From assembly GCA_017506865.1 (NCBI GenBank), contig JAFCMP010000168.1:744001-808000 (forward strand): DNA of 64,000 bases, in the 5' to 3' direction. Position numbers and translations under genes: made by a program. Positions 24,330 through 63,339 of this stretch are shown piece after piece. The notes under the pieces are model-generated. The model did no database searches. It was not told the origin of the DNA and saw only the letters and a program-made list of their open reading frames with translations. Origin of the DNA: Tribonema minus. Its lineage: Eukaryota > Sar > Xanthophyceae > Tribonematales > Tribonemataceae. Within the stretch, counting starts at the first letter, position 1. Each line of letters opens with the position of its first letter.

Positions 24330-25810
24330 ATGGTGGTGACACGGAAGCGGGCCCGGGCGCTGGCTGCCATCGCCTCTTGTGATGCGAAAGCGGAAGCGAG
24401 CCAGCAGCAGCATGGTAAATAACAGTACATGTCATCTTTTTTTTTCATTCAGTTGATCAGTTGATGCAAGGGGGTCTAGACCCCCTTGGCTGATGCATCG
24501 GTCCCTTCGCAGCATTGCAATTGTTGCATGACGGTGCGCTGCAACTTCTTTGGCTGCGCATGGACGCATTCAGTTGCTCCTCCTGATTGCAGGGTGTAGC
24601 TTGTGACCTGCTTCACTGCGCGGGTATCGGCATCAATGTGATTGACTGAGAGAAATCCTCCCTGATTTGTACCCTCAGATCTGTGGATGAAAGTCTTTGA
24701 GTTCTTGCCACACGGGCACTACCTCCAGCTTTCATCCGTGAGCACGGGGTGGCGCACTCTTTATGCCAGTAGCATGCAACTAAGGGGGCTGGCAACTAGT
24801 GAGAAACACACCACCGCGCTAGCCATGGTCGCATCAGCGCCCCTCATACAGTGGGCATTTGCCAATGGGTGCCCGATGAACTCAAAGCTCCTGTACAACG
24901 CCGCCGCATGCGGTCCTTTAGAAGTGGTGCAGTATGTATACCTCAAGGCAGTGGGGCAGCGCGTGGACCCTATAGCAAACTTTTCTGTATGCAGGACCTC
25001 AGCTGAGCGTGGGAATCTTGAGTTGTTGCAGTGGGCACGCGCCCAGGGGTTTCAATGGGGCACACATACAAGCGCAGCAGCGGCGCGGGGGGGGCACCTG
25101 GAGGTGCTGCAGTGGGCACACAGTAATGGTTGCCTCGTGGGCTCGAGCACATGCGCTGCAGCAGCCAGCGGAGGGCACCTGGAGGTGCTGAGGTGGGCAC
25201 GCGAAGTCGGTTGCCAGTGGCATGAAGATACATGCGATGGCGCCGCAGCAGGCGGCCACCTGGGCATTTTACAGTACGCTCGCAGTCACGGCTGTCCATG
25301 GAACAGCGTGACGTCCTACAATGCGGCCCTCCACGGTCATCTCCAGCTTTTACAATGGCACACACAAATGGCTGCCCCTTTGACACAGGCGTATACTCGG
25401 CGGCCGTGCGCGGGGGCCACCTGCATGTCCTTCAGTGGCTGCACGAGGTAGGCTGCCCCTGCAACGAAAGCGCTTGCGCGTGTGCCGCAGAGAGCGGTCG
25501 TCTGGACATCCTGCAGTTGCTGCGAGTGCAAGGCTGTCCCTGGGACGCGACGGTGTGTAGAAAGGCGGTTCAAGGGGGTTTTCTGGAGTTGCTACAGTGG
25601 GCGCGCGCCAATGGCTGCCCATGGGGAGGAGAGGCACGGTGGGCCCTTATGTTCCTCAGCTGGGCCACTGTTGCAGATTGCGGGTTTGACACAACACTAA
25701 CGGTGGAGTGGGCGTTGGCAAATGGCTGCCCGAGCAGCGACGCACGTAGGTCCCGCTTCACTGACTTGAAGCGCAGGGTGACGGCTGCTCAGGCGCGCCG
25801 CTCCGTGTAG
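24330..25810 (+). pseudogene. F-box/ankyrin-like repeat gene, copy A (one frameshift)
   Basis: Exon 1 (24330-24414) encodes a short basic leader (MVVTRKRARALAAIASCDAK) ending in phase 1 at G|gtaaat. Exon 2 starts at 24679, after tcag, and continues as D-LWMKVFEFLPHGHYLQLSS, an F-box-like helix set, followed by about nine ankyrin-like units of 33 residues. Compared with the paralogues, one G is missing after 25358, where caatggcaca stands for caatgggcgca; the frame shifts there and the paralogous frame continues to the TAG at 25808-25810. Lesion in a G run: either real decay or a sequencing/assembly indel. If intact, the protein would be about 405 aa and probably act as a substrate adaptor of an SCF ubiquitin ligase; that role is inferred from domains. 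Confidence 0.75.
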
Positions 25811-28748: not shown

Positions 28749-29690
28749 AGCGCCGGTGACCAAGGGATGTGCTGTCTGGCAACGGCGATGCCTGCGTGGA
28801 AGAGGTGGAACAGCAATGTGCGGAAGCGAGTGTTAGGGCATCTATGCAATGGTGGGTGAAGGAGTAGGCAATGCATCCTGAAAATGAGATGTGCTTGTAT
28901 TTATTTATTTCAGCGCGTCAACCCGCACGTGTGTGAAGCAGCCGGCAGGCCGTCGATGACATGATGCCGCATTCACGTGCGCAAGAAGACGTAACAGGGG
29001 AAGCGAATTGAGACCAAACATTGGTCAAGTCATAAACAATGGTTTTGCTGACTGCTGCACATGATACATTATGTTTGCATCCGTCAGTCTGCTGTCCCTA
29101 TTTCAATGCCAGATGCAGTGCTGTGGAGCCTCAGTGGTGTCCGCACTTCCAGAGTTCTCTGGGCTATGCGACCCAGTCATCAGCAGCAGCTGAATGCTTG
29201 CAAAACCTCACAATTGTCCGGCCGCACGGTGTTAACATGTTCTACTCGATCGAGGGGCGTTTACTCAGAAGACAAGTTTACAGCTGATGCGCTCAGTGCG
29301 AATGAGACAACTGCTGCCAGGCACGGCACGCACCTGTTATGAGCAATGCGCGGCCAGTCGTTGTCGTGTCGAGGTCACTGTTCTCTGTTCTCTTTGGATT
29401 AGGCAACCGAACTTCAACTCTCTCTATGAACTTGAAGTTATGGGTACCGAACTTCAACTCTCTATATGAACTTGAAGTTGAAGTTCTCTATTTTTTGGGG
29501 AGGTGCACGTGCACGTGCGTAACAACAGGTGCGTGCGTTCATCGAGTTACGCCTCTACCTGACAATATTGTTCACAGGATGGTGGACGTAAAGCAGGTAT
29601 AACGCTCACACTACCCACCTGACCAATTTTCAAATCCTCCCGCTTGATTCCAGGACACGGGCGCCGGCGCGCTCGTTGAAGATTCGGAGC
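28749..29690. promoter_or_regulatory. Shared upstream region of the head-to-head armadillo pair
   Basis: The 942 bp between the two divergent ATGs would hold both promoters. It includes a 40-bp tandem repeat with gaacttcaac and gaacttgaagtt arms at 29407-29486 and a cgtgcacgtgcacgt-like run near 29505. An acceptor-like ttccag at 29652 lies just ahead of the plus gene, so that gene may have an upstream exon. Confidence 0.4.
29407..29486. repeat. 40-bp tandem repeat with internal inverted arms
   Basis: Two units start at 29407 and 29447, both reading ccgaacttcaactctct and then gaacttgaagtt. Each unit contains opposed acttcaac/gaagtt arms, so it could pair with itself or with its neighbour. Confidence 0.8.
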
Positions 29691-30965
29691 ATGAGCATTC
29701 CACGCACTGCCGATGCTGTGGTGGATTGCATGCGCAAGTATCCTGCCTGCCCGAGACTGCAGCAGTACGGGTGCGAGGCGATTGCACAGCTCGCAGAGGA
29801 TGACGCGAGCACAGACTCGCTTCACGCCGCAGGCGCCATTGAGCGAGTGGTGGCAGCGCTGCTCATTCACCGTGGCGATGCGCGCGTGCAGATTGCAGGG
29901 CTGCAGGCTGTGAAGTTCCTTGCCGAGTCTCCTGTCATTCGCCCCCACCTGTGCCAATTGGGCGCTGGCGAGGCGATTGTGGCGGCGATGCGCCAGCACA
30001 CACAGAACGAATACATTCAGTTGAGGGCCGCGCGCGCCATGCATGCTGTGCTATGCGACGGCAACGAATCCACCAGGGCGAGGTTGGTGAAAGCGCACGC
30101 GTTCACGCCCCTGACGTCAGCGCTCATACGCCACACAGGCACCAGAAACATGTTCACGCTGAACATCGTGGCTCACTTGATCGCAGACCTGCTTGACGAC
30201 GAGACCTGTGCGGCGCTCACTGGCGCGGGCGTCGAGGCGTTGCTGGCAGCCCTGACCGCGGCCGGCGCGACAGCGGCGGTGACGGGTCCGTGCCTCGCCG
30301 CCATAGTGAAGCTGTGCTGCGGCGGTGCTGGCTTGGCAGCGGAGCTCGCCACGGACGGAGCATGCGATGCGGTGATGGCCTGCGCGCGGTCCTGCGGCGG
30401 CGACCCCACAGTACACGCATGCGCGTGGGGAGCCGTTGCATCGCTCTGCCGTGACGCAGGCAACGTCGCGCGGCTCGGCGCGCGCGGCGCGTGCGAAGCT
30501 CTGGGGGCTGTGCTCCGCGACCACGCGACGTGCCAGCAGATACAGCTGGCCGGCGTGGCCGCCGCGCGTCAGCTCGCGATGCACGACGGCAACGCGGCCC
30601 GGCTGGCAGCGGTGGGTTGCTGCGAGGCTGTGGTGGCAGCCATGAATCTGTGTCACGGCGACGCAGATATGCAGCAGATGGCGGTGAGCGCTATCGCGAT
30701 GCTTGCGGGCTCGCAGCAGCGTGCCGCCCAGTTTGGCGTCCCCGGCTGCTGGGCGGTGCTGTCGGCCGTGCGCGCATTCCCCCTAGATGACGTCATACAG
30801 CAGCGCGGTAACAGGGCGATGCTCGCCCTTTGCAGCTTGGACTCCAATAACCGCTGGCTGGAGCGCACAGAGCTGGCTGCAGAAGAGGATGGAGCTGCTG
30901 ATGACAGCAGGCAGGAGAGCGCATTTGCTGCCACTGATGCCGGCAGTACAGAAACCAGCGCATGA
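29691..30965 (+). CDS. Armadillo-type repeat protein, intact paralogue
   Basis: This uninterrupted frame of 424 codons starts at the ATG at 29691 (MSIPRTADAVVDCMRKYP) and ends at TGA 30963-30965. It consists of about nine degenerate armadillo-type repeats of roughly 42 residues, with recurring motifs such as GACEALGAVL, HDGNAARLAAVGCCEAVVAA and GVPGCWAVLSAV, then an acidic, low-complexity tail from about residue 395. The codon usage is GC-rich and no lesion is visible. No signal peptide or membrane segment is seen, so it is probably cytosolic or nuclear. Function is unknown beyond probable protein binding. A leucine codon upstream is in frame, and a splice acceptor at 29652 leaves open a longer N terminus. 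Confidence 0.8.
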   Translation: MSIPRTADAVVDCMRKYPACPRLQQYGCEAIAQLAEDDASTDSLHAAGAIERVVAALLIHRGDARVQIAGLQAVKFLAESPVIRPHLCQLGAGEAIVAAMRQHTQNEYIQLRAARAMHAVLCDGNESTRARLVKAHAFTPLTSALIRHTGTRNMFTLNIVAHLIADLLDDETCAALTGAGVEALLAALTAAGATAAVTGPCLAAIVKLCCGGAGLAAELATDGACDAVMACARSCGGDPTVHACAWGAVASLCRDAGNVARLGARGACEALGAVLRDHATCQQIQLAGVAAARQLAMHDGNAARLAAVGCCEAVVAAMNLCHGDADMQQMAVSAIAMLAGSQQRAAQFGVPGCWAVLSAVRAFPLDDVIQQRGNRAMLALCSLDSNNRWLERTELAAEEDGAADDSRQESAFAATDAGSTETSA

Positions 30966-32629: not shown

Positions 32630-34178
32630 CTACTTCCTCAGCGCCTCGATTTTCGCCTTCAGGCCGCTTGGGTTGGCGCCGACAAACTCCTCGATCACCT
32701 CGCCGTTCTGCGCGGCAACAGCAGCGCTCGGCGAGTCAGACGGCGGAAACAACGGATTGCAGCAGCGGCAGCGCTGGAACGTGCAGCAGTGCACGATGGT
32801 GATGCTCAGCGCGACTCACAGCAGCAGCGGGGTATCATGATTGAAGTTAAGTGTTGCAGCAGTGCTCAGTGCGATGAGCAGTAGCAGGCTCAAAGCATGC
32901 ATGATGATGTGACGGCGTTGCGCTGCCAATTTCCCAGTGCGAGTTATAACGCGATTGGCGGTCAGTGGCGGCACAGCTGTGCCCCAGCCTGTGTGGGTGT
33001 GGTACGACACACGATGAATGCTCACAGCGCACCGGCGATGGGCTACACACAAGGACTTGAGAGAAGACCTTTCCACGCCGCCCTGCCTGGCGAGAGCAGC
33101 GCCGCACAGCGAAGTGGCCACTGACCTTGATGAACTTGAAGGTGGGCATAGCCTCAATGCCGTAGTCCTCCGCTGCGTCCTTGTTAATGTCCACGTCCAC
33201 CTGGATCGGGTGCACACAACAGCAGAAAGGTGCGCACACACACCAGCCGGCATGCGCTGTCAGCAATGATGCAGCGGAGCGACATCCCAGCAATTGCAGA
33301 GCGTACAGGTGCCGTTGAAAGCTGCGTGCTAATGGCCGATGCAGGGTATCAAGGACTTGAAAAAACCTGCAGCACCGGGGCAGTTTCGGCCCGGTGTTGT
33401 GCACATTCTTAGGGGAGTGGTGTGAGAAGCACAACTGCGGTTGAGATGTGTCTGCCTCACTGACCTTCAAGTAGACGACGTCCGTCATCTCATTTGACCA
33501 TTGCTCCATGAGGGGCGCGATCTGCCGGCACGGTCCGCACCTGTAGAGCATCACCACCAGCGGCAACATCACGCATGTTGGCGTCAGGGATCACATCATT
33601 GCGGGGTCGAGGCACGTTACCTGTGAGGCGGCCACTCGTGGCGTGCGCTCGCGCAGGCACTCACCATCTGCAGCAGCACGAGCATGCAGAGAAACAGGTG
33701 TCGTCAGTGGGATGTGTGGAAAACAGAGAGCGAGAGAGCATGCGAGGCACTGCTTCGCTCAGTGATGCCTGCGATGCGACAAATCTCTCGTAGGCACTCA
33801 CGTTGCGAAAAAGTCGATCACAACCTGTCAGGTGAAGAAAAAGGGGCACCAGACAGACACAAAGTCGCAACAACAACGTCAGCAAACTGGCAGCAAGCCC
33901 GAGTTAAGTCAGAACAAATCCCTGTAAATGTGTGCAGTCTGGACAGTCTAGCGACTTTACGACAATGCACTGGCAACATCGGATGCAGACGCACGCTAAT
34001 ACATCAGGAACAACCTTGACGCTACTGTGTCTGCACGCAAATATGCTGCTTGGACAGCGCGCACCACGTTGCCTGCTTCTGCTGGGTGTAAGCAACTCAA
34101 CAGGATACTGACCAATTTGCCTCCTGCGCCATCGATGGCGCTCTTGAGCTCCTCGGTGGTGCCGCAAGACTTGACCAT
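32630..34178 (-). CDS. Thioredoxin, cytosolic type, six exons including a 3-nt microexon
   Basis: A dithiol-disulfide oxidoreductase. Minus-strand exons: 34178-34113, 33824-33802, 33667-33665, 33540-33465, 33200-33126 and 32707-32630, totalling 321 nt, 106 aa plus TAG. The product has the usual thioredoxin length and order: ELKSAIDGAGGKLV, VIDFFAT at the second strand, the active site W31-C32-G33-P34-C35, VDVDINKDAAEDYGIEAMPTF with cis-Pro75, and a C-terminal GEVIEEFVGANPSGLKAKI. No targeting peptide is present, so it is probably an h-type, cytosolic form. All introns are GT-AG. Exon 2 ends GCA AC and exon 4 starts G TGC; only insertion of the 3-nt exon ATG, flanked by ctgcag and gtgagtg, restores ACA TGG and thus Thr30-Trp31. 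Skipping it keeps frame but deletes Trp31. Confidence 0.92.
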
Positions 34179-47307: not shown

Positions 47308-48708
47308 ATGGTGGCAACAAGGAAAGAGGCCCGTGTCTTGGCTCTAAATGCATCTTGTGACGCCAAAGCGGAAGCGAGTCAACAGCAACATGGTAAGATG
47401 CGTGCTCCAACTGTATATTGACGTTCAAGTGTTTAGTTGAATTCCGCTAAAGCAATGGACGACACCGCACATGTTGTGTTTTGCAGCTTGTGGCCTGCGC
47501 TCTTACTGGTCATCTTCGCTGCATGTGACTGACCTTCAAACACTCTCATCCGCTGATGATCTCAGACATGTGGACGAGAATCTTCGAGTTCCTGCCACAC
47601 GGGCACTACATCCTGTTTTCATCCGTGAGCACTGCATGGCGGGCGCTATATGCCAGGAGCATGCAGCTGAGGGGGCTGGCAACTCGTGAAAAACAAACAA
47701 ACCCGCAAGCCATGGTGGCATCAACGCCCCTCATACAGTGGGCGAGCACCATCGGGTGCGAGATGACCTGGAGGGTACTGTACAACGCCGCCGCAGACGG
47801 CACTTTAAAAAGTAGTGCAGTTTGTGTTAGCAAATATTGCGCAAAGGCGCGGCGTCAATTTGTTGAACCTGCCAGTGTGCGATATTGCGGCTGGGCGCGG
47901 GGATCTGGAGATGTTGCAGTGGTTACATGCCCGGGGGTTTTACTGGGACACAGACACGAGCGCAGCAGCAGCTCGGGGGGGGCACCTGGATGTGCTGCAG
48001 TGGGCACGCGCCAACGGGTGCCCCTTCGATTTCAGCACCTGCGCTGCAGCAGCCAGTGGAGGGCACCTAGAGGTGCTGAGGTGGGCGTACCACGCAGGAT
48101 GTGAGTGGGACGAGGAGACATGCAATGGAGCTGCAGAGGGCGGCCATCTGCTCATCCTCCAGTATGCTCGAAGCCACGGCTGTCCGTGGAGCACCAGGAC
48201 GTCCTACAAAGCGGCACACCACGGTCATCTCCAGCTTCTACAATGGGCGCACGCAAACGGGTGCGCCTTTGACGCAGGTGTATGCTCTAATGCCGTGCTT
48301 GGAGGCCACCTGCACGTGCTTCAGTGGCTGCATGAGGTAGGCTGCCCCTGCAACGAATACGCGATCGTGTTTGCCGCAGAGACGGGTCGTCTGGATATCC
48401 TACGCTGGCTGCGAGCACAAGGCTATCCCTGGGATGCGAGGGTCTGCACAGGGGCGATTGATCAGGGTCACCTAGAGTTGCTGCAGTGGGCACGCGCTAG
48501 TGGCTGCCCATGGGAGGCAGACGGATGGACCTTTCATTTTCTAAAATGGACCCACTTTGATGCAGATCGCCACACTAGCGTATTGTCAGCGATGGAGTGG
48601 GCGCTAGCAAATGGCTGCCCGTGCAGCGACGAGAGTAGGGATCATTACATGCAGCTGCGACGCAGGGTAGACGCTGCGCAGGCACACGGCTCTGATCAGC
48701 AGCGATGA
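47308..48708 (+). pseudogene. F-box/ankyrin-like repeat gene, copy B (one frameshift)
   Basis: Exon 1 (47308-47392) gives MVATRKEARVLALNASCDAK and ends in phase 1 at G|gtaaga; exon 2 (from 47566) continues D-MWTRIFEFLPHGHY. The frame of the F-box-like part runs into a five-A run at 47807-47811 that has one A too many (ttaaaaagtag for the expected ttaaaagtag). The paralogous frame, with about nine ankyrin-like units (HLDVLQWARANGCPFD and so on), resumes at once and ends at TGA 48706-48708. Without the extra base the product would be about 408 aa. The homopolymer position makes a sequencing indel a fair alternative to true inactivation. Confidence 0.75.
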
Positions 48709-54456: not shown

Positions 54457-55974
54457 ATGGTGGCAACAAGGAAGAAGGCTCGTGTCCTGGCTGTCCTGGC
54501 TCTGGCTGCTTCGTGTGACGCCAAAGCGGCAGCGAGCCAACAACAACGCGGTAAGAGCGTGTGATGACACTCATTCGTGATCATTTTTGTTGCGTGGCAC
54601 ATGAGCGCAAGTTTTGGAAGCGGCTAGCCTCGATTGTCTCATGCGATGTCAAGACTGCTCCTACAAGGCAGTGCAGAACCCGATCGTGAAGAAAGTCTGC
54701 ATCGAATGACACCGCGCATGTTGGAAGCGCTTTTTGAGCGAGAACTTCTTTAGGCTGCGTGGCCTATTTCTCGTCGTGTACCTTTTGAGGGCATGCAATT
54801 GACCTGTCAACACTCTCATCCGCTGATGCGCTCAGATATATGGATGAAAATCTTCGAGTTCCTGCCAGGTGGGCACTACCTCCAGCTTTCATCCGTGAGC
54901 ACTGCGTGGCGGGCGCGTTATGGCAGGAGCATGCAGCTGAGGGGGCTGGTGAATCGTGAGAAAGAAACGAATGCACTAGCCATGGATGCATCAGCACCCC
55001 TCATACAGTGGGCATTCACAAACGGTTGCAAAATGACTACGAGTGTCTTGAGCCACGCTGCCACTTGCGGCACTTCGGAAGTATTACAGTTTGTGTTCGC
55101 CAACATCACGTACCGGCGCGGCGAGATCTGTCAGACGGCACCAGTGTGCAAGGCTGCAGCTGTGCGCGGGGATCTAGAGATATTGCAGTGGGCGCATGCC
55201 CAGGGGTTTTACTGGAATACATTGACAAGCGCAGCAGCAGCGCGCGGGGGGCACCTGGAGGTGCTGCAGTGGGCACATGCCAACGGGTGCCCCCTAGATT
55301 GGAGCACCTGCGCTGCAGCAGCCAGCGGAGGGCACCTGGAGGTGCTGAGGTGGGCGCGTGACGTTGGATGCAGCTGGGATGAGCGGACCTGCAGTGAAGC
55401 GGCAGTGGGCGGCCACTTGGACATCCTCCAGTACGCTCGAAGCCACGGCTGTCCATGGAGCCGCTGGACGTCCTACAATGCGGCACGCAACGGTCATCTC
55501 CAGCTTCTACAATGGGCGCATGCAAATGGCTGCCCCTTCGACACAGGCGCTAACTCGGCGGCAATTCGCGGAGGCCACCTGCATGTGCTTCAGTGGCTGC
55601 ACCAGGTAGGCTGCCCCTGTGACGAACATGCATGCATGTATGCCGCCCGGGCCGGTCGTCTGGACATCCTACAGTGCCTGAGGGCGCAAGGCTGCCCATG
55701 GGACGGGAGCATCTGCACAGAGGCGATCGAGAAGGGAGCCCTGGATTTGCTGCGGTGGGCCCACGCCAATGACTGCCCGTGGGACGGAGAGAGGACCTTA
55801 GACTTTCTAGTGAGGGTGGAAGACACTGATTCAGATAGCCTCGTCATCGTATTGTCAGCGGTAGAGTGGGCGCTGGCACATGGCTGCCCATGCAGCGACA
55901 GGAGTAGGGCTCGGTTCACGCAGCTGCGCCGTAGGGTAGACGCTGCGCAGGCGCGCAGCCCTTCACAGCAGTGA
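54457..55974 (+). CDS. F-box/ankyrin-like repeat protein, copy C (intact)
   Basis: Exons 54457-54550 and 54836-55974 join in phase 1 (G|AT) to 410 aa. Exon 1 is a basic leader (MVATRKKARVLAVLALAASC). Exon 2 opens with D-IWMKIFEFLPGGHYLQLSS and WRARYGRSMQLRG, an F-box-like helical region (about residues 32-75). About nine ankyrin-like units of 33 residues follow, each near HLEVLQWAHANGCPLDWSTC; a shorter, acidic unit is near residue 345 and the protein ends VDAAQARSPSQQ. The intron (54551-54835) is GT-AG. F-box plus repeats suggests an SCF substrate adaptor, with the array as the binding surface; this is inferred. An alternative is a start at an in-frame Met inside the intron (54793), but the conserved leader in four paralogues favours splicing. 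Confidence 0.8.
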
Positions 55975-61975: not shown

Positions 61976-63339
61976 ATGGTGGCAACGAGGAAGCAGGCTC
62001 GTGTCCAGGCGCTGACTGCTTCGTGTGACGCCAAAGCGGCAGCGAGCCAACAACAACGTGGTAAGATGCGCGATGCCATTGTGTACTGCTCCCACATCCT
62101 GGCGCCCAACCGGGCAGTGGCAGTGCAATATCCCGTCGTGAAAAATCTGCATTCGCTTGAATTGCACCTCACATATTGGACGCGCCTCCAGCGCGTGTGT
62201 ATTTTTGTAGCTTGTGGTTTCTCTTGGTGTGTATTCTGAGGTGCATGTGACTGACCTCTGAATACTCTCATCTGCTGATGCCCTCAGATATGTGGCTGAA
62301 AATCTTGGAGTTCCTGCCACACGGGCACTACCTCCAGCTTTCCTCCGTGAGCACTGCATGGCGGGCGCTCTATGCCAGTAGCATACAACTGAGGGGGCTG
62401 GCGACGCGTGAAAAAGAAACGAATGCACTAGTCATGGTTGCATCAGTGCCCCTCATACAGTGGGCATTCACAAACGGGTGCAGAATGACAAAGAGGTTGC
62501 TGGTGCATGCTGCCACGTGCGGCACTTTAGAAGTGGTGCAATACATGTTCGCAAACGCCAAACACCCACGCATCAGCTTGTTTTCAGGCTCGTCCGTATG
62601 CGAGGCCGCTGCTGCACGGGGGGATTTGGAGATGCTGCAGTGGGCGCATGCCAATGGATGCCCCTTAGATGCCAGCACATGCGCAGCAGCAGCTAACGGA
62701 GGGCACCTGGAGGTGCTGAGGTGGGCACGTAATACAGGATGCGAGTGGGACGAGGACACATGCACTGCTGCCGCAACAGGCGGCCACTTACACGTTCTTC
62801 AGTATGCTCGAAGCCACGGCTGTCCGTGGAGCCGCGCAACCTCTTGCAATGCGGCACGCCGCGGTCATCTCCAGCTCCTGCAGTGGGCGCACGCAAACGG
62901 CTGCCCCTTTGACATACTTGCATACACGTCGGCCGTGTTTGCAGGCCACCTGCATGTGCTTCAGTGGCTGCATGAGGTAGGCAGCCCCTGCGACGAAACC
63001 GTGTGCGCGTATGCGGCCGAAATGGGGCGTTTGGACATCCTACAGTGGCTGAGGGCGCAAGGCTGCCCATGGAATTGGACGGTCTGCTTCCGAGCAATCA
63101 AGGGGGGGCACCTAGATGTGCTGCAGTGGGCGCGCGCCAATGGCTGCCCGTGGAACGGAGAGAGGACTTTGGTATTTCTAGAATGGGCCCACCTTAGTGA
63201 ACCGGATCGCCACACTAACATGTTGTCAGCACTGGAGTGGGCTCTAGCAAATGGCTGCCCATGCAGCGACAGGAATAGGGCTCACTACATGCAGCTGCGG
63301 CGCAGCGTGGATGCTCGGCAGGTGCGCAGCACTCTGTAG
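61976..63339 (+). CDS. F-box/ankyrin-like repeat protein, copy D (intact)
   Basis: Exons 61976-62060 and 62288-63339 join in phase 1 to 378 aa. The leader reads MVATRKQARVQALTASCDAK; the F-box-like region DMWLKILEFLPHGHYLQLSS, then WRALYASSIQLRG. Eight or so ankyrin-like 33-residue units follow, one fewer than in copy C: the unit containing a GFYW motif in copies B and C is missing here. The array includes HANGCPLDASTCAAA, HLHVLQYARSHGCPWS and LEWALANGCPCSD. It ends VDARQVRSTL, TAG 63337-63339. The intron (62061-62287) is GT-AG. Like copy C it is a probable F-box substrate adaptor by domain logic; no partner can be named. Confidence 0.8.

Follow-up and report, generated by a model that had tools for sequence, protein, structure and literature searches.

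Exons of only a few nucleotides (nt) have been described before. Those of 3 nt have been published for Drosophila troponin T, Drosophila homothorax and rodent NCAM (as compiled in PMC7392893), and those of a single nucleotide for Arabidopsis APC11 and plant VPS55 (as described in PMC4674806 and PMC8831610). Here we analyze a thioredoxin gene in a 64,000-nt stretch of DNA from Tribonema minus (contig JAFCMP010000168.1, positions 744,001 to 808,000; hereafter the window), in which a predicted 3-nt coding exon would be kept constitutively and would complete Thr30 and the active-site Trp31, a reading to which we assign a probability of about 0.88 from sequence comparison. The original prediction had placed 3-nt exons among the smallest known, which is correct, but 1-nt exons have also been published, and exon size is thus no novelty. 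What is less usual is the location within an active-site residue and the spacing of just 3 nt between two introns of a single gene. Among the matches listed for the literature on thioredoxin microexons and stramenopile microexons, no title concerned such an exon.

The gene is modelled on the minus strand, from 34178 to 32630, as six exons (66, 23, 3, 76, 75 and 78 nt) separated by introns of the GT-AG type:

34113..34178, minus strand: exon 1, 66 nt, with start codon ATG and donor GTCAGT; its end was placed by the spliced aligner
33825..34112, minus strand: intron 1, 288 nt, phase 0, from spliced alignment
33802..33824, minus strand: exon 2, 23 nt, encoding VVIDFFA plus bases 1 and 2 of Thr30, from spliced alignment
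33668..33801, minus strand: intron 2, 134 nt, phase 2 (AC/A), with donor GTGAGTGCCT, acceptor CTGCTGCAG and CTGAC A at -37
33665..33667, minus strand: exon 3, the predicted 3-nt microexon ATG, supplying base 3 of Thr30 and bases 1 and 2 of Trp31
33541..33664, minus strand: intron 3, 124 nt, phase 2 (TG/G, within the Trp codon), with donor GTGAGTGCCT, acceptor CTCTACAG and CTGAC A at -44
33465..33540, minus strand: exon 4, 76 nt, encoding the last base of Trp31 and then Cys32-Gly-Pro-Cys35, from spliced alignment
33126..33200, minus strand: exon 5, 75 nt, from sequence and spliced alignment
32630..32707, minus strand: exon 6, 78 nt including the stop codon TAG; its start was placed by the spliced aligner

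Exon 2 (33802-33824) itself measures merely 23 nt, so that two very small exons stand in succession.

Homothorax micro-exon 8 resembles the thioredoxin exon in being a 3-nt ATG exon in an AGATGGT context that keeps the reading frame. As described in PMC7392893, however, it is subject to alternative splicing, falls outside the domains, between two of them, and coincides with the first bases of a 48-nt exon that overlaps it, whereas in the thioredoxin gene a stop follows directly when the ATG is read through (ACA TGG TGA), and the exon sits in the catalytic motif. The APC11 and VPS55 exons are likewise ultra-small coding exons between two introns that had gone unannotated, and that of VPS55 has a conserved GTRAGT donor, the same form as the donor of the thioredoxin microexon (according to PMC8831610 and PMC4674806). 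These 1-nt exons do not keep frame, have been shown in RNA and are reported as conserved among land plants, whereas the thioredoxin exon has 3 nt, keeps frame and is predicted from one genome. Stwintrons also present two adjacent introns, presumed to be spliced consecutively, but in the account of PMC5639578 one intron breaks a splicing motif of the other. Introns 2 and 3 do not form a stwintron, in which the inner intron would split the donor, branch point or acceptor of the outer; each has its own donor, CTGAC motif and acceptor, with 3 coding nt between them. Nor is there a recursive splice site, where an acceptor abuts a donor around a zero-nt exon, since AG and GT lie 3 nt apart. Near intron pairs offer a further likeness, in that a few nt separate two intron positions, one of which is probably novel; that work, as far as PMC2891723 sets it out, rates coexistence of both introns as very unlikely, whereas in the thioredoxin gene both would coexist.

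The coordinates of the original prediction are correct: exon 2 (33824-33802) ends in GCAAC before GTGAGTG, exon 4 (33540-33465) begins with GTGCGG after CTCTACAG, and the ATG at 33667-33665 stands, as had been said, between CTGCTGCAG and GTGAGTG. With the three nucleotides inserted, the junction reads ACA TGG TGC GGA CCG TGC, giving Ala-Thr-Trp-Cys-Gly-Pro-Cys; a direct join of exon 2 to exon 4 stays in frame, again as predicted, and gives Ala-Thr-Cys-Gly-Pro-Cys with the loss of Trp31. The central claim, that a 3-nt exon supplies Trp31, thus appears to be borne out by the sequence and by the intron positions of paralogues (see below). Since sequence and spliced alignment predict it to be internal, no longer than 15 nt and flanked by spliceosomal splice sites (CTGCAG before and GTGAGT after), it would belong to the small coding microexons (1-15 nt).

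With exon 3 kept, the predicted thioredoxin has 106 residues and no internal stops, and scores 97 bits against PF00085 (Pfam Thioredoxin; cut-off 23.5); the direct join lowers the score by 12.9 bits, to 84.1. It is a classical thioredoxin by its PF00085 domain, its WCGPC motif and MPT cis-proline loop, and its alignment to the thioredoxin named LECA in PDB, the best solved relative among the matches listed (best 60 of 319). The best solved relatives among these matches are thioredoxins, and WCGPC is aligned in both alignments displayed. By residue count, Trp31, Cys32 and Cys35 carry the same numbers as in human Trx-1 (PMC11939457), and the Trp of WCGPC is present only with the 3-nt exon. Trp precedes CxxC in 80/80 prokaryotic homologues (79 by script and L090, with WCEPC, by eye), a count that is biased as these were the best 80 of 562 and were fetched partly with a Trp-containing pattern. 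A scan of viral contigs gave one match, L074, alike over 13 residues with WCGPC uninterrupted and uninformative on the exon.

The 261-nt gap between exons 2 and 4 permits 35 stop-free, in-frame insertions of a single exon with GT or GC donors (the list is confined to single exons). Six of the 35 place Trp before Cys32 to yield WCGPC, and one alone, the ATG at 33667-33665, does so without any added residue. Any NTG would serve, because ACN always encodes Thr. The splice sites on either side of the ATG are strong. Two other sources of the residue were tried and rejected: extending exon 2 through its donor runs immediately into a stop (ACG TGA), and if exon 4 is lengthened upstream, the residue ahead of Cys32 becomes Arg instead of Trp. 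In the window, counting both strands, AG-NTG-GT occurs 31 times, and YAG-NTG-GTRAGT and CAG-ATG-GTGAGT once each.

Spliced alignment led to the same exon. Our purpose-written aligner uses no splice-site weights, requires GT or GC with AG and penalizes GC; the 12 references were LECA, 10 of the 80 prokaryotic loci and the paralogue L053. It placed the 3-nt exon with 12/12 references at intron penalties of -8 and -14, and with 11/12 at -20. With tubulin references, it split the alpha-tubulin gene of the same genome by four introns and the beta-tubulin gene by three, all GT-AG, with a smallest exon of 28 nt.

Paralogues bear on the positions of the two introns. Ten of 39 PF00085 matches were inspected as thioredoxin-like loci (the search listing did not contain the window gene itself), and six of the ten were picked because their match starts near the Trp, a choice that inflates the proportion with an intron at that place. 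In L053 and L054 an intron lies exactly at TG/G of the Trp codon, the same position as intron 3, and the exon 3/exon 4 junction is therefore a used position and probably an old one. L052 and L055 are uninterrupted across the Trp site, L068 has its intron in the Gly codon past it, and L070 and L073, also inspected, gave no usable junction. Three further loci have a phase-1 intron (T/GG) within the Trp codon:

G000 C146:4850-5600: L069, thioredoxin-like
G000 C1:459000-459680: L071, thioredoxin-like
G000 C1:2264520-2265250: L072, thioredoxin-like

The Trp codon of thioredoxin-like genes is accordingly split at two phases (phase 1 and phase 2) in one genome. Intron position as a thioredoxin marker is the topic of Sahrawy 1996, as referenced in PMC4452251. 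Against these paralogues, intron 2 (AC/A) appears to be the odd one out.

How could introns so close together be removed? We take the gene to be functional and to encode a cytosolic-type thioredoxin in a photosynthetic alga. An extra intron, the present intron 2, may have arisen 3 nt upstream of an older one, leaving the 3-nt exon between them. Such an exon can hardly hold two splice complexes together, so introns 2 and 3 would probably be removed in succession. An exon of 3 nt is unlikely to be recognized as a unit, and exon 2 with its 23 nt would hardly do better; the short introns would instead favor recognition across the intron, in sequence. In plants, as reported in PMC8831610, the intron upstream of a microexon is more often retained. 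If that pattern applies, intron 3 would leave first, the ATG would then head a 79-nt exon, and intron 2 would follow. CTGAC, which we infer to be the branch point, has its A at -37 in intron 2 and -44 in intron 3, so the inner acceptor has a branch-point-like motif of its own. The motif occurs, at a distance of 15-60 nt between its A and the acceptor, in 10/20 introns of a set comprising the five of the window gene and 15 others, all with GT donors and good flanking alignment; excluded were all introns of L056-L059 (actin-like), L069 and L071, together with the first ones of L052 and L055. It is present in 5/5 introns of the window gene (two near the edge of the range, at 55 and 60). As background, CTGAC lies 15-60 nt upstream of 233/4,401 YAG sites in the window, and of 10/212 when the site is CTGCAG.

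Retention of either intron meets an immediate stop (ACG TGA for intron 2, ACA TGG TGA for intron 3), so skipping alone, among simple alternatives, yields another full protein. Because skipping keeps the frame, the exon might be alternatively spliced, with the ratio of Trp31-containing to Trp31-lacking protein setting redox capacity; the original prediction had raised this idea, and nothing in the sequence analysis pointed to regulated skipping. In its favor, He et al. 2025 describe human Trx-1 lacking Trp31 as expressed, with insulin reduction and cell protection against peroxide both lowered (PMC11939457), and homothorax, per PMC7392893, provides an alternatively spliced ATG microexon in Drosophila. 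Most coding microexons of plants, however, are usually kept, with percent spliced in (PSI) mostly > 0.5 according to PMC8831610, and the case for a switch would rest on one gene in one genome. We consider such a switch very improbable. By analogy with human Trx-1, the skipped form here is likely to be a weak thioredoxin too, and until RNA shows otherwise skipping is provisionally taken as a splicing error.

Several observations weigh against a constitutive 3-nt exon. Foremost, 134+3+124 nt makes 261 nt, an ordinary intron length in this genome, as if the gap were undivided, and introns 2 and 3 are the shortest of the 20-intron set, in which the next has 234 nt. CTGAC is found in 5/15 introns from other genes. 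In dinucleotide shuffles of the gap interior, the loosest pattern, AG-NTG-GT, arose in 570/20,000; the two stricter ones, which count in favor of the exon, arose in 2/20,000 (YAG-NTG-GTRAGT) and 0/20,000 (the actual site, CAG-ATG-GTGAGT); as the patterns were picked post hoc, we take the true strength to lie between 570 and 2 per 20,000. The aligner dropped the exon with 12/12 references at an intron penalty of -26; with LECA as reference, the loss on blanking the three nucleotides amounted to only 14, 8, 2 and 0 points across the four penalties; and at -8 the aligner also introduced a spurious 6-nt exon in another part of the gene when L087 was the reference. One rival is a single 261-nt intron, with exon 2 joined straight to exon 4, a thioredoxin lacking Trp31 and an ATG present by chance: frame is kept, both outer splice sites are canonical, and the length is typical of the 20 introns. 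Such a join has to reckon with the 12.9 bits lost against the thioredoxin family, with the rarity of the strict site (2 in 20,000), with the CTGAC that precedes the inner acceptor, and with L053 and L054, whose intron follows the TG of the Trp codon. Taken with these, it seems to us a slim prospect, marginally slimmer than a redox switch. A longer exon with a TG donor, either this one or another, is a scarcely credible source of the Trp: five longer stop-free single-exon insertions likewise yield WCGPC, but they add 4 to 43 residues directly ahead of the active site, two depend on introns of 5 or 17 nt, two on a GC donor, and the acceptor of the 93-nt candidate (CATCACTGAG) has no pyrimidine tract.

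With the constitutive 3-nt exon as the preferred reading, the source of the additional intron can be considered. The donors of introns 2 and 3, 137 nt apart, agree at 15/17 nt, the best of 210 donor pairs (from a donor table of 21 rows, of which L052a is mis-cut and not a donor, its pairs being counted in the 210), and the likeness (GTGAGTGCCTNCGNGAG) was also recovered as repeat D2. Local alignment matched it in 14/2,000 shuffled pairs. In the 11 nt past GTGAGT nine are alike, a level met in 133/200,000 draws of GTGAGT sites from a pool that includes both donors. This likeness suggests that a donor region may have been duplicated between the two introns. Against duplication, the likeness stops after 17 nt; without the first six bases, local alignment gives at best a different 8-mer, no better than chance (718/2,000); the tubulin donor a0 agrees at 13/17 with each of the two; and the unrelated pair a0/L061b also reaches 9/11 after the first six bases. 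A single search of the assembly (158 Mb, 554 contigs), read both for introner-like copies and for a second copy or allele, matched the exon 2-4 DNA with both introns to itself alone; the search skips very common words, and its lack of further matches does not imply rarity. One could picture a near intron pair that coexists, in which an old TG/G intron was joined by a new intron 3 nt upstream when the donor region was duplicated locally (GTGAGTGCCTNCGNGAG). Such a gene would be caught midway in intron gain or shift, and frozen there because the three nucleotides became indispensable. We hold this scenario to be doubtful, if less so than the rival readings above.

If RNA confirms the exon, a near-invariant active-site residue of thioredoxin would hang, in an alga, on the inclusion of three nucleotides, and a gene model without them stays in frame, so that the omission goes unnoticed. 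The locus would then offer a clean case for how introns 3 nt apart coexist and splice, and a case for intron gain beside an older intron.

Other observations concern the host and the surroundings of the gene. Plastid gene fragments (psaA/psaB and rbcL), several with stops, are scattered over large contigs (C168, C490, C107, C334, C112 and others) and are probably plastid DNA in the nucleus. The best PDB chains for the psaA fragment are in 9m4f, 9ygv, 6ly5, 8zeh and 8xls, of which we take 6ly5 and 8xls to be diatom photosystems. The thioredoxin paralogue L002 has a signal-like N-terminus with an ACAF motif, presumably a signal for a red-derived secondary plastid. The plastid fragments, psaA matches and L002 together suggest a host alga with such a plastid. 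Of the 28 open reading frames (ORFs) in the window that reach 200 aa, 10 long ones were scanned; ankyrin repeats are present in four and an armadillo-type match in one, and two of the four ankyrin ORFs have an N-terminal F-box match, one barely above the cut-off. The ankyrin/armadillo-type ORFs, perhaps a local cluster, are:

24687-25448: ankyrin/armadillo-type ORF
47815-48705: ankyrin/armadillo-type ORF
54793-55971: ankyrin/armadillo-type ORF
62278-63336: ankyrin/armadillo-type ORF
29676-30962: also an ankyrin/armadillo-type ORF
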